Of a stretch of DNA of 64,000 nt, positions 21,796 to 25,263 are shown piece after piece. The DNA lies in contig CAMYLA010000003.1 of NCBI GenBank assembly GCA_947259095.1, positions 62,001-126,000 of the forward strand, given 5' to 3'. The stretch is from an uncultured Acidimicrobiaceae bacterium (GTDB taxonomy: Bacteria > Actinomycetota > Acidimicrobiia > Acidimicrobiales > SZUA-35). A program made the translations under genes and the position numbers. The notes beneath the pieces were generated by a model. That model did no database searches. It was not told where the DNA came from and worked only from the letters and a program-made list of their open reading frames with translations. Each line of letters starts with the position of its first letter. Position 1 is the stretch's first letter.

Positions 21796-22296
21796 TCAGG
21801 CCGCGTGCTGCTCGAGGTAGGGGGTCCAGGCGTCTGGCACCGTCCCGGCCGCCACCTTCACCCAGACGTACTGCGTCGGTGCGGCAGGGCGGCTGCGGAG
21901 CCGGAGTGCGCAGTCCTTGAGAAGCCGATCGCTCTTGTAGGTGTTGCATCGGCGGCAGCAGGCAACCACATTGTCCCAGATGTGTTCGCCGCCACGGGAA
22001 CGGGGCAGCACATGATCGATGCTCTCGGCGGTCTTGCCACAGTACTGGCATTTCCCCTGGTCCCGGGCGAAGACCGCCCGCCGGCTGAGCGGTGCGGTCC
22101 GCTTGTAGGGGACCTTGACGAAGTACCGCAGTCTGACGACCGACGGAACCGCAACCTCCAGCCGCGATGAGACGAGCTTGGAGCCGGTCTCGGCCAGCAC
22201 ATCGACCTTCTCCGCCAGGGCGAGGATCACCGCCCGTCGACCGGACACCACCCCGATTGGCTCATAGGTGGCATTCAACACAAGAGCCCGTGACAT
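21796..22296 (-). CDS. HNH endonuclease family protein
   Basis: A 166-residue protein. The N-terminal part (SRALVLNATYEPIGVVSGRR) is typical of a family of stand-alone HNH proteins widespread in actinobacteria. The HNH core is complete: CQYCGKTAESIDHVLPRSRG, then NVVACCRRCNTYKSD with both CxxC zinc pairs and His in IDHVLP. The biological role of these chromosomal HNH proteins is not established. An ATG six codons upstream is also possible; I used the start that matches the family's MSRALVL beginning. Confidence 0.85.
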   Translation of the reverse strand: MSRALVLNATYEPIGVVSGRRAVILALAEKVDVLAETGSKLVSSRLEVAVPSVVRLRYFVKVPYKRTAPLSRRAVFARDQGKCQYCGKTAESIDHVLPRSRGGEHIWDNVVACCRRCNTYKSDRLLKDCALRLRSRPAAPTQYVWVKVAAGTVPDAWTPYLEQHAA

Positions 22297-22424
22297 TGGG
22301 CCAATGTAGTGCATGGGGGCCGATCGATGAGAAGCCGTTTCCTCCGATGGCGGACCCGGTCTCGGTCGGCCCGTTCCCCCGGGCCATGGCGCCGGCCACG
22401 GCGGTCCCGGGCGTTGCACCTGGT

Positions 22425-23210
22425 TCAGGCCGGGGGCAGCGTTGCGACGAATCGCTCGGCAAGGGTCGCAGGGTCCGGTCGGGCGACACCGGGGGGAAAG
22501 CCCGCAGCCACCTGTGCGGGGTCGAAGGCGGCCGGGTTGCGGTAGCGGACCGGGTCGAGGGCGGCCATGCGGTCGGGGTTGACGTAGCGGGCCAGCCGTT
22601 CCGCCGGCCAGTCCCCGAGCACCAGGGTCTGGATCCGCAGCCAGGTCCTGGTTCGCCGCTGGGACAGGCCAACGACCTTCGATCCGCCCACCGATACCTC
22701 GCCGTGGCCCAGGTCGGCGAAACACCACACCGATCCCGGTCTCGAGGCCCGGCCCGACGCTGTCGCCGGGGCTGATCGGCGATGCACGATCGGCCCTGGT
22801 CGAGCGGCAACCGGCGGCCGCTGATCGGCCTCGGCGCCGCTGCCGGCGGCGGGCCGATCTGCGTCGAGCAGGGGTGTGAGGGTGGACGCCCAGTGCTCTC
22901 CGACCCAGTGGAAGGCCCTACCGACGTCGTGGTGCCAGTGTCGGGAACTTTGGGGGACGATGAGGTCGATCCAGCAGTCGGTGGCGGGATCGAGGTAGAC
23001 GAGGCCGCCACCGGAGCGACGTCGGCACACCTCGACCCCGTCGGCCTGCGCCCGCACATCGTCGACGAGCGCGTCGGGCTGGGTGCTGCCGAGCACCAGT
23101 GCCGGTCCGCCCAGCCGTCGGATCCAGATCTGGGCCGAGGTATCGGCCGGCGGGACGAGCCGGTGGAAGGTGTCGGCCGGTCCCTCGGTGATCGACACCT
23201 GCCACGACAT
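22425..23210 (-). CDS. Lipoate-protein ligase A-like protein
   Basis: A 261-residue member of the biotin/lipoate ligase superfamily. It carries VEVCRRRSGGGLVYLDP, matching the RRxSGGG substrate-binding motif of LplA, and GGSKVVGLSQRRTR, which resembles the lysine-containing KIxGxAQRR motif. Between them lies a 40-residue Pro/Ala/Arg-rich insert (around residues 125-165), so two halves of the domain are separated by a flexible linker. Lipoylation, or a related octanoyl or biotin transfer, is likely but the substrate is not shown. It is divergent from mraZ. A periodic CCCAC array lies 84 bp upstream of its start. Confidence 0.7.
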   Translation of the reverse strand: MSWQVSITEGPADTFHRLVPPADTSAQIWIRRLGGPALVLGSTQPDALVDDVRAQADGVEVCRRRSGGGLVYLDPATDCWIDLIVPQSSRHWHHDVGRAFHWVGEHWASTLTPLLDADRPAAGSGAEADQRPPVAARPGPIVHRRSAPATASGRASRPGSVWCFADLGHGEVSVGGSKVVGLSQRRTRTWLRIQTLVLGDWPAERLARYVNPDRMAALDPVRYRNPAAFDPAQVAAGFPPGVARPDPATLAERFVATLPPA

Positions 23211-23293
23211 GGGTTTTGCTGCTCCGTTTCCGCCGGTCGGCCGGCTCCCTGCAACCGGTCTAGCGTCCGGACGGCCAAAATCTGCCGATCCGC

Positions 23294-23328
23294 CCCACCG
23301 CCCCCCACCACGCCCCACCACCACCCAG
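23294..23328 (-). promoter_or_regulatory. Candidate MraZ-binding array facing the lplA-like gene
   Basis: On the minus strand GTGGG occurs at 23318-23314, 23308-23304 and 23298-23294, preceded by CTGGG at 23328-23324. The spacing is exactly 10 bp throughout, i.e. (TGGG-N6) four times. The known E. coli MraZ site is three TGGG-N5 type repeats with 10-bp period. Low-complexity G-rich sequence is an alternative explanation. Confidence 0.5.
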
Positions 23329-23480
23329 GCTGTGCTCGGTCGATCGTCTGAGGCTCCCAGATGCGGTGATTTCAGGCGGTTATCGCGGTCGCAGGCCCGA
23401 TGACACAGGTGTAATTTCGAACGGTCGTACGCGCAGACAGCGCGTGAAAAACCGCGGATTGTCGCCAAAAGGGTTGCGTG

Positions 23481-23515
23481 GTGGGGCGAAGTGGGTTAAT
23501 TTGTCACGCAGTGGG
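23481..23515 (+). promoter_or_regulatory. mraZ: Candidate MraZ-binding array upstream of mraZ
   Basis: GTGGG occurs at 23481, 23491 and 23511 on the plus strand; the position expected at 23501 is degenerate (TTGTC) and could instead serve as a -35. Ten-bp spacing places the boxes on one face of the helix. It begins ~120 bp before the mraZ start, as expected for MraZ autorepression of the dcw promoter. Confidence 0.55.
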
Positions 23516-23603
23516 GCGATATCCCATAGAACAGCCCTTCAGAACAGCAAGAAGAGAACTCAATCCCAGCAGTCGTCGAGCGAAGGAGAAATGAGGTGAA
23601 ACG

Positions 23604-24029
23604 GTGTTTGTCGGCCAATACGAGCATGCTCTCGACGACAAGGGCCGGGTTGTCCTCCCTTCGCCGTTTCGAGCGTTCGTGGCCGACCGCGGCTACATCA
23701 CCCAACTCGATGGGTGTCTTGGTCTTTGGAGTGCCGACGAGTTTCGAGTCGTCGCTGAGAAGTGGAAGGCGGAATCGGCAGCATCACGCATCTCGATGAG
23801 GGTCTTCCGCAAGCTGATGAACAGCGTGCGGGAGGTGAAACTCGACTCGGCCGGACGGATCACGCTTCCCCGTGAACTGCTCGACCAACTCGGTTTCCAA
23901 TCGCAGGTGGTGGTCAGTGGGCTCTTCGACCGGGTGGAAATCTGGCCGGCAGAGACCTACGAGCGTGACCTCGGCACCGAGGATGCAGCTGAAGAACTGG
24001 CGGAGGCGGTAGCCCGTCTCGGGCTCTGA
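23604..24029 (+). CDS. mraZ: Transcriptional regulator MraZ
   Basis: First gene of the division and cell-wall cluster; a 141-residue DNA-binding protein with two AbrB-like swapped-hairpin domains. The first has MFVGQYEHALDDKGRVVLP (the DxKGR motif) and the second VKLDSAGRITLPRELLDQLG (DxxGR). MraZ forms a ring and represses its own cluster by binding direct repeats upstream. A GTG start is used, 6 nt after an in-frame-independent ATGAGGTGA; no ATG fits the conserved N-terminus. Its final codons and stop lie in one copy of a tandem hairpin repeat (24008-24053). A 253-bp gap follows before rsmH. Confidence 0.95.
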   Translation: MFVGQYEHALDDKGRVVLPSPFRAFVADRGYITQLDGCLGLWSADEFRVVAEKWKAESAASRISMRVFRKLMNSVREVKLDSAGRITLPRELLDQLGFQSQVVVSGLFDRVEIWPAETYERDLGTEDAAEELAEAVARLGL

Positions 24030-24053: not shown

Positions 24054-24282
24054 CAAAAACAACGATCTAACGAATTCCCCACCGGAACAGAAAGGAGCGT
24101 GGGCGAAACCGAATCTGACAAATCGTTCATCGATTACCCCCCGGAATGTGGAGAGGGGTGCTTCTGCCCCACGACTCCGCCCGCTACTCCTCTTAGTGCC
24201 AACCGGGAGATACAACCTGGCGCACGTCGCAGTCCGGGGGGTTATCGATGGCCGATTCGTAGCTTTGACAGCCCGTCGAGCG

Positions 24283-25263
24283 ATGGTTGACTCTCCGCCC
24301 GGCTCGGGACCCGAACCGAGTGCTGATCACTCGACTCCCTCGGGAGCTGCGCCTTCGTTCCAGCATCGACCGGTCATGGTCGACGATGTGGCCGACCTGG
24401 CCACGCCACTGCCGGCCGGCACCTTCCTCGACGCAACCGTCGGTGGTGGGGGCCACGCCGAGGCGGTCCTCGGCGCCAACGACGGCCTCGAGCTGCTCGG
24501 CGTCGATCGGGATCCCAGCGCCCTGGCCGCCACCGCGGCACGACTGGAGCGCTTCGCCGATCGGGTCACACTCCATCGAGGCCGCTTCGACCAACTCCAA
24601 GACGTCGCAGGCGCAGCTGCCCTGAGCGGCTTTCTGTTCGATCTCGGTGTCAGCTCTCCGCAACTGGACCTGGCCGATCGGGGCTTCAGCTTCCGCAATG
24701 ACGGCCCGCTCGACATGCGGATGGATCCCGACGCCCGGTTGACCGCCGACGACATCGTCAACCAGTACGACCAGCGGGAGTTGGCGGAGTTGATTCGACG
24801 CAATTCCGACGAGCGTTTCGCAGCCAGGATCGCAGCCGACATCGTTGCCGCCCGGCCGCTGGCCACGACGGCACAGCTGGCCGAGGTGGTTGTCACCGCC
24901 ATCCCGGCCCCGGCCCGACGCCGAGGTGGCCATCCGGCGAAGCGGACTTTCCAGGCGATCAGGATCGAAGTCAACGACGAGCTTCGCATCCTCGGTCCTG
25001 CCTTGGACTACGTGCTCGACGCATTGGTGCCCGGAGGACGGGGCATCGTCATCACCTACCACTCCGGCGAGGACCGGATAACGAAAGATGCCTTCCGTCG
25101 GCGGACCCTGGTTGAACACCCACCGGGACTCCCGGTCGAACAACCGGAACCGGACTACCGGATCGTCAGGCCGATGGCCCGGCGACCGACCGACGAGGAG
25201 GTTGCCAGCAACCCGAGAGCGGCCAGCGCACGGCTCCGCTCCATCGAACGAGTCGCAGCGTGA
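24283..25263 (+). CDS. rsmH: 16S rRNA (cytosine-1402-N4)-methyltransferase
   Basis: S-adenosylmethionine-dependent enzyme that methylates N4 of C1402 in 16S rRNA (formerly MraW). The 326-residue protein has FQHRPVMVDDVADL near residue 25, the SAM-binding LDATVGGGGHAEAVLG, LLGVDRDPSAL, FDLGVSSPQLDLADRGFSFR and DMRMD, then AIRIEVNDEL and GGRGIVITYHSGEDR. The ATG at 24283 gives a normal ~25-residue lead; no strong ribosome site is seen and an upstream GTG or TTG cannot be excluded. It follows mraZ by 253 bp, so transcription may be modulated in the gap. Confidence 0.93.
   Translation: MVDSPPGSGPEPSADHSTPSGAAPSFQHRPVMVDDVADLATPLPAGTFLDATVGGGGHAEAVLGANDGLELLGVDRDPSALAATAARLERFADRVTLHRGRFDQLQDVAGAAALSGFLFDLGVSSPQLDLADRGFSFRNDGPLDMRMDPDARLTADDIVNQYDQRELAELIRRNSDERFAARIAADIVAARPLATTAQLAEVVVTAIPAPARRRGGHPAKRTFQAIRIEVNDELRILGPALDYVLDALVPGGRGIVITYHSGEDRITKDAFRRRTLVEHPPGLPVEQPEPDYRIVRPMARRPTDEEVASNPRAASARLRSIERVAA

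Follow-up and report, generated by a model that had tools for sequence, protein, structure and literature searches.

The region between mraZ and a divergently transcribed lipoate-ligase-like gene appears to be a divergent control region with two MraZ operators, accompanied by a LexA-type box. It lies in the window, the whole stretch of 64,000 nucleotides that was analysed here from an uncultured Acidimicrobiaceae bacterium. On the mraZ side, an MraZ multimer would occupy four GTG-type boxes that follow each other in 10-bp register over the -35/-10 spacer, the -10 element and the start site; from this array, MraZ would repress mraZ and the dcw genes behind it, an autoregulatory arrangement. MraZ most likely also binds an array on the opposite strand, upstream of the ligase-like gene, and would reduce transcription from the gene's promoter by covering or crowding it. 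An SOS-type box placed 62-64 bp from mraZ box 1, give or take one helical turn, would probably allow LexA to act on the same promoter complex. As a whole, this explanation, in which binding, the sign of regulation and the promoters are predicted from the observed sequences, their conservation, their spacing and their gene context, has in our estimate a probability of about 0.55.

The mraZ gene (23604-24029, plus strand, 141 aa, GTG start at 23604) heads the dcw cluster. Its product matches Pfam MraZ (5.2e-24; 84.5 bits against a cut-off of 23) and the MraZ structure 1n0e in the PDB (4.7e-14). Two DXXXR motifs are the hallmark of the MraZ family, and the translation contains both, as DDKGR and DSAGR. 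The alignment to the NCBIfam MraZ equivalog TIGR00242 covers residues 1-137 and reaches 86.4 bits, below the cut-off of 98.35. The dcw gene that follows is rsmH (mraW; 24283-25263, plus strand; Pfam Methyltransf_5, 1.1e-95), for which the start ATG 24283 was chosen; its longest frame begins at GTG 24148, and the Methyltransf_5 match starts at residue 71 of that frame. On the other side lies the ligase-like gene (22425-23210, minus strand), with a probable ATG start at 23210. Its protein matches the LplA-B catalytic domain (LplA-B_cat, Pfam PF21948, 8e-11; 42.7 bits, cut-off 27) over residues 36-96 only, and it scored 18.3 bits against the cut-off of 280 for the NCBIfam lipoyltrans equivalog. 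Because the LplA/B domain is partial and the score falls far below the NCBIfam lipoate-ligase cut-off, we use the name lipoate-ligase-like only. A search of solved structures gave no match for this protein, and a second, stronger match to the LplA-B_cat family is present elsewhere in the window's genome. Given the two start codons, the intergenic region spans 393 bp, the length reported in the first-pass annotation. Downstream of the ligase-like gene, an HNH endonuclease gene was also observed (21799-22302, minus strand; Pfam HNH_5, 6.4e-14).

The 20 named loci with the closest MraZ proteins come from uncultured MAGs of the Acidimicrobiales or Acidimicrobiia, one of them named as an "uncultured actinobacterium". 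MraZ was present in 39 of 41 genomes and in 37 of 39 family genomes, the window's own being counted in both. Of the 39 family genomes, 35 had a readable ligase-mraZ region: 24 lie outside the window's genus and 11 are among the 12 within it, including the window's own. The four left out were two genomes with no MraZ match (G045 and G051), one in which a contig end breaks the region (G002) and one with no ligase match in its 672 bp upstream of mraZ (G052). In all 35 readable family genomes the ligase-like gene is divergent from mraZ, and the ligase proteins of ten relatives share 47-63% identity with the window's over the matched part. In other families, the gene was found in 9 of the 13 genomes examined, each time upstream of and co-directional with mraZ. 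The ligase-like gene adjoins mraZ in several families of the order, co-directional in those (L081-L083, L086-L089, L027 and L028) and inverted in the window's family.

On the plus strand, GTGGG is found at 23481-23485, 23491-23495 and 23511-23515, with TTGTC at 23501-23505 as a degenerate box, in agreement with the first-pass annotation. The four 10-bp units of this array (23481-23520), GTGGGGCGAA GTGGGTTAAT TTGTCACGCA GTGGGGCGAT, run through a predicted mraZ promoter at 23474-23502 on the same strand, which consists of the -35 hexamer TTGCGT (23474-23479), a 17-bp spacer and the -10 hexamer TAATTT (23497-23502). Boxes 1 and 2 occupy the spacer and extend into the -10, box 3 coincides with the last bases of the -10 and with the inferred start site, and the last box lies in the first transcribed bases. 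We aligned the 30 family genomes that carry the SOS-type box, and at least 90% of them keep the promoter TTG and TA. Their consensus consists of TTGc, a spacer of mostly 17 bp and TA...T, followed by four gap-free units in 10-bp register. Box 1 is mostly GTGGGGcgaA and box 4 is GTGGG, while box 2 reads GTGGG in the genus and mostly GTGTC elsewhere; box 3 has a TG core, written as TTGTC or TTGGC in the genus and mostly as GTGTC elsewhere. Examples of deviating boxes are GGGGG at box 1 in several genus members, box 2 of G016, and box 4 of G014, G024 and G049. Since the TG core is kept at the -10/start site across the family, box 3 of the window would be a local form of a conserved box. Direct GTG/TGGG repeats with a 10-bp period are a feature of both arrays, and only the plus array, with its predicted promoter, also sits at the mraZ promoter over the start region. 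The earlier proposal of MraZ autoregulation is well supported by position and by conservation in the 30 aligned genomes, and so is the reading of the plus array as an ordinary MraZ-type autoregulatory operator within the predicted mraZ promoter. At and just after the last MraZ box, the mraZ leader also contains a TGGG...CCCA inverted repeat (23511-23527, plus strand) that is present in most of the 30 aligned genomes; it may fold into a 5'-terminal hairpin of the mRNA, or it may be an oppositely oriented box.

The minus-strand boxes likewise stand as first described, with CTGGG at 23328-23324 followed by GTGGG at 23318-23314, 23308-23304 and 23298-23294, spaced exactly 10 bp apart. The units of this array (23289-23328, minus strand) are CTGGGTGGTG GTGGGGCGTG GTGGGGGGCG GTGGGGCGGA. 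Within the window, TGGGN6TGGGN6TGGG occurs with zero mismatch only here (two overlapping matches), and when up to two mismatches were allowed it was matched 9 times against 14.3 expected, with no window-wide excess. The triple GTGGGN5GTGGGN5GTGGG has one copy in the 6.39-Mb genome, which is the minus array (reversed control, 1). The pair GTGGGN5GTGGG occurs 25 times in the whole genome, against 31 in the reversed control, with three of the 25 in the mraZ-ligase intergenic region. Set against their reversed controls, these counts indicate a motif that is concentrated at the mraZ-ligase region without genome-wide enrichment. A wider MraZ regulon was considered and rejected, as the pair shows no genome-wide excess. 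Comparison of the ligase-mraZ region with Rfam gave no match at the gathering score.

Conservation among relatives argues that the minus array is not a chance occurrence. In all 11 readable regions of the genus, TGGG pairs at exactly 10 bp are found on the ligase-sense strand. They number 17, against a shuffle mean of 0.11 and a maximum of 2 in 500 rounds, and 10 bp is the one clear peak among spacings of 4-35 on this strand, the runners-up having 4 pairs. The conserved core of the array in the genus is GTGGGGCGAAGTGGG. In the alignment of the 11 genomes, the 20-bp core carries 1.48 bits per position and its 40-bp flanks 0.33 and 0.43. The core figure is inflated, since the best TGGG pair, picked by its similarity to GTGGGGCGAAGTGGG, served to anchor each row and thereby fixed the TGGG positions in advance. 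The exact triple was found in the window's genome only (1 of 25) and in none of the 24 other genomes searched. On these counts the minus array exceeds chance, and the putative second operator is real at the level of the genus; its conserved minimum there is a pair of boxes, which is expanded to four in the window's genome. The same alignment bears on whether the array is a functionless by-product, left over or copied from the mraZ operator when the ligase gene turned divergent. Such an origin would fit the co-directional gene order in other families, as opposed to the divergent order in the 35 family genomes, and the pair is missing from many family genomes. Nevertheless, the core is conserved across the 11 genus genomes between flanks that are near random and beside ligase proteins of such limited identity, and a functionless relic is disfavoured by this core conservation; we hold it to be very unlikely.

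Outside the genus, the minus pair is patchy. It was detected in 7 of the 24 family genomes (9 pairs; shuffle mean 0.21, maximum 3), and in three of these, G013, G023 and G049, it lies near the ligase-like gene. The other four carry it away from the ligase promoter: in G050 it is 979 bp from the ligase gene, in G047 and G048 it is by the mraZ leader, and in G022 a small plus-strand reading frame, noted by eye, appears to lie between it and the ligase gene. The remaining 17 have no exact minus pair, and 14 of those 17 show the plus array. In 11 genomes of other families, the DNA upstream of the ligase-like gene (15 loci, one with only 268 bp available) contained no exact pair; allowing one mismatch gave a sense match there in 4 of the 11, and loose matches of this kind accordingly carry little meaning. 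The motif GTGGGGNGAAGTGG was matched 22 times in the 41 genomes, against 8 times in the reversed control. When sorted by hand, 17 of the 22 fell in or beside the ligase-mraZ region (9 intergenic in the ligase sense, 5 in the mraZ sense at the mraZ promoter, and 3 in or at the N-terminal part of the ligase frame) and 5 fell elsewhere. The off-locus matches in G010, G004 and G006 were inspected and rejected as further MraZ sites, as they lie in unrelated places, one in the end of a reading frame and two outside those frames of at least 120 aa that are credible as genes; the other two are in G019 and G026.

We consider it probable that MraZ binds the minus array, while for control of the ligase-like gene by MraZ we judge the chances to be even. 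In favor of control, the array has the strand sense of the ligase-like gene and is built from the same unit as the mraZ operator; the ligase-side pair also adjoins a candidate -10 (GACAAT) at ATG candidates in three genomes, G006, G008 and G010. Against it, the distance from the array to the probable -10 or start of the ligase gene varies, by eye, from about 15 to more than 100 bp, which would be odd for a simple repressor, and the start codons and promoters of the ligase genes are uncertain. In the window, a tentative -10 (TAGACC, 23257-23262, minus strand) was assigned to the gene with low confidence, and the array would stop just upstream of its -35; the similar sequences TAGACCGG and TAGAACCGG are found in G011 and G001. 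The first-pass annotation had suggested that MraZ may also control the divergent gene, and had regarded close relatives that keep the plus array and lack the minus array as evidence to the contrary. Its MraZ-type site beside the divergent gene was borne out throughout the genus, where no such relatives were found, and did not extend to most of the family genomes outside it, which include the 14 that carry the plus array alone. With this patchy distribution, control of the ligase-like gene is plausible but lineage-restricted.

The minus array may alternatively serve as an auxiliary MraZ operator for mraZ itself, through looping or local concentration, rather than as a control site for the ligase gene. 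The genus array is never more than a few hundred bp from mraZ, and the G022 pairs appear by eye to lie on the mraZ side of the small reading frame, off the ligase promoter, both of which would agree with an auxiliary role. This role is quite unlikely in our judgement. The spacing between the arrays varies from 153 to 252 bp and shows no significant helical phasing (p 0.20 and 0.11, with the trio G006, G008 and G010 counted once), and in family genomes outside the genus the plus array is often present without a minus pair. The same lack of significant phasing gives no support to the single looped complex using both arrays that had been put forward in the first-pass annotation. The G-rich minus array could also be read as a G-quadruplex like that proposed for the S. 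aureus mraZ leader. The relevant part of PMC11796246 places that quadruplex downstream of the mraZ promoter in S. aureus and mentions such motifs for other bacteria, and the window resembles it in having a G-rich tract near mraZ. The window's minus array fits four runs of G3+ with loops of 1-7, as do those of G013, G023 and G049, which are three of the seven other genomes examined outside the genus. Within the genus, however, the motif is found on that strand in only 3 of 11 regions, and the window's plus array has none, whereas 10-bp pairs are kept in 11 of 11 and their exact phase would be unnecessary for a quadruplex. The common feature of the window's clade is thus the 10-bp phase and not four G runs, and we regard a quadruplex as highly improbable. 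A second MraZ operator is the reading of the minus array that we retain.

Between the two arrays lies an element that is absent from the first-pass annotation, a LexA/SOS-type box (CGAACGGTCGTACG, 23418-23431) that departs from CGAACN4GTTCG at one position and lies 63 bp from mraZ box 1; on its conservation and spacing, this phased box is a new candidate element of the region. In the 36 family genomes whose sequence extends at least 250 bp upstream of mraZ, CGAACN4GTTC occurs within 330 bp of mraZ exactly in 23 and with at most one mismatch in 30, and the six from which it is absent are the readable members of genera g5 and g11. An exact copy was found in one of 13 genomes of other families (G030). 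In 28 of the 30 family genomes with the box, it lies 62, 63 or 64 bp from mraZ box 1, and the two exceptions, at 73 and 53 bp, are each displaced by one helical turn, in opposite directions. Several candidate boxes were present in ten of the 30 rows, and there the best fit to the alignment was picked; the distance of 53 bp in G019 is such a pick, with 61 bp as the alternative. When one hand-picked value was used for each of nine genera, the phasing was significant (p given as 0.0000 for 20,000 random draws), with R of 0.92 at 10 bp and 0.91 at 10.5 bp.

In the window's genome, TCGAACN4GTTCG was matched 37 times, with palindromes counted on both strands, against 5 times for the reversed motif. 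The motif precedes lexA and other SOS-type genes of the same genome: two copies lie before lexA, the sole lexA found there, a DnaE-type polymerase (PHP domain; L112, G000:C55) has its longest open frame beginning 8 nt from another copy, and an HNH frame (L119) is 127 nt from a further one. Ten reading frames near copies of the motif were compared with Pfam, of which four matched (DnaE-type, HNH, LexA and sigma-70 region 2) and six did not. Because of this gene context, we take the motif to be the SOS box of the window's genome, and as the copy upstream of mraZ has one mismatch, binding there may be weak. It is also conceivable, although somewhat unlikely, that the palindrome is the site of a regulator other than LexA. 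Strict phasing to the mraZ array, with its +10/-10 exceptions, would be expected of an activator or co-bound partner more than of a classic SOS repressor, and the window's palindrome copy is imperfect; the recurrence of the motif before lexA and near the DnaE-type polymerase and HNH frames argues for LexA instead. At about -84 from the inferred start site, a repressor whose sole action is to block polymerase would need no fixed phase, and the phase therefore suggests that the factor at the SOS-type box, LexA in the reading we prefer, contacts the promoter complex or MraZ.

A strongly covarying structured RNA was also observed between mraZ and rsmH (24122-24256, plus strand). Across 23 loci, 18 of the family and 5 of other families, it has 37 pairs, 23 of which show changes on both sides, and 93.2% of cells are paired, a level never matched in 500 shuffles; as these 23 loci were selected from 29 because they contain the exact anchor [AT]CTCCGCCCGC, the anchor columns are fixed by choice. 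The window stretch and 6 loci gave no Rfam match at the gathering score and only weak, chance-like matches below it. The RNA may be a divergent relative of the mraW motif RF01746 of Actinomycetales, which appears in the motif listing of PMC2864571.

The published MraZ sites described in the relevant sections of PMC7761207 and PMC8475190 are GTG repeats with a 10-bp period, and the B. cenocepacia site in PMC7761207 consists of four 7-nucleotide repeats separated by 3 nucleotides, which cover the start site and lie downstream of the -10. The window's operators resemble those of E. coli, Burkholderia cenocepacia and Mollicutes in that the mraZ promoter carries GTG direct repeats with a 10-bp register. 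They differ from the B. cenocepacia site, where the boxes are downstream of the -10, in that the boxes also fill the -35/-10 spacer, and from the known operators in general by the second, opposite array beside a divergent metabolic gene. For E. coli, the sections of PMC3265435 on dcw regulation describe three SOS boxes through which LexA represses, and binding of PdhR, a regulator of lipA as well, to DNA upstream of mraZ (1.7-fold in ChIP, weak in vitro). DNA damage and pyruvate or lipoate metabolism are thus themes shared with the window, but the window has one SOS-type box, which stands upstream of the mraZ promoter at a constant helical phase, and the window's link to lipoate is the neighboring ligase-like gene and not PdhR. 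The LexA regulon of Streptomyces venezuelae, as given in the main text of PMC9380542, is similar in having TCGAAC-type palindromes before SOS genes; that main text makes no mention of "mraZ" or "dcw", and it states that the mechanism coupling division to DNA repair in Streptomyces has yet to be identified. In the accessible text of the open literature on MraZ, lipoate, LexA and dcw, we found no description of a double MraZ array combined with an SOS-type box.

MraZ is a widespread regulator of the division cluster whose targets and signal are poorly understood. A second operator kept genus-wide beside a metabolic gene would supply a concrete MraZ output, and a phased SOS-type site at the mraZ promoter would supply a concrete input to an MraZ-controlled promoter. 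In its fullest form, which we think unlikely as a whole, the region would be a three-part switch at the head of the dcw cluster: MraZ at two opposed operators would tie the division genes to the ligase-like gene in the genus, and LexA, helically phased 62-64 bp upstream in most of the family, would cooperate with MraZ or oppose it, and DNA damage would thereby reset division-gene transcription directly. A LexA site at the head of the dcw cluster in another actinobacterial lineage would be a candidate form of the link between DNA repair and division.
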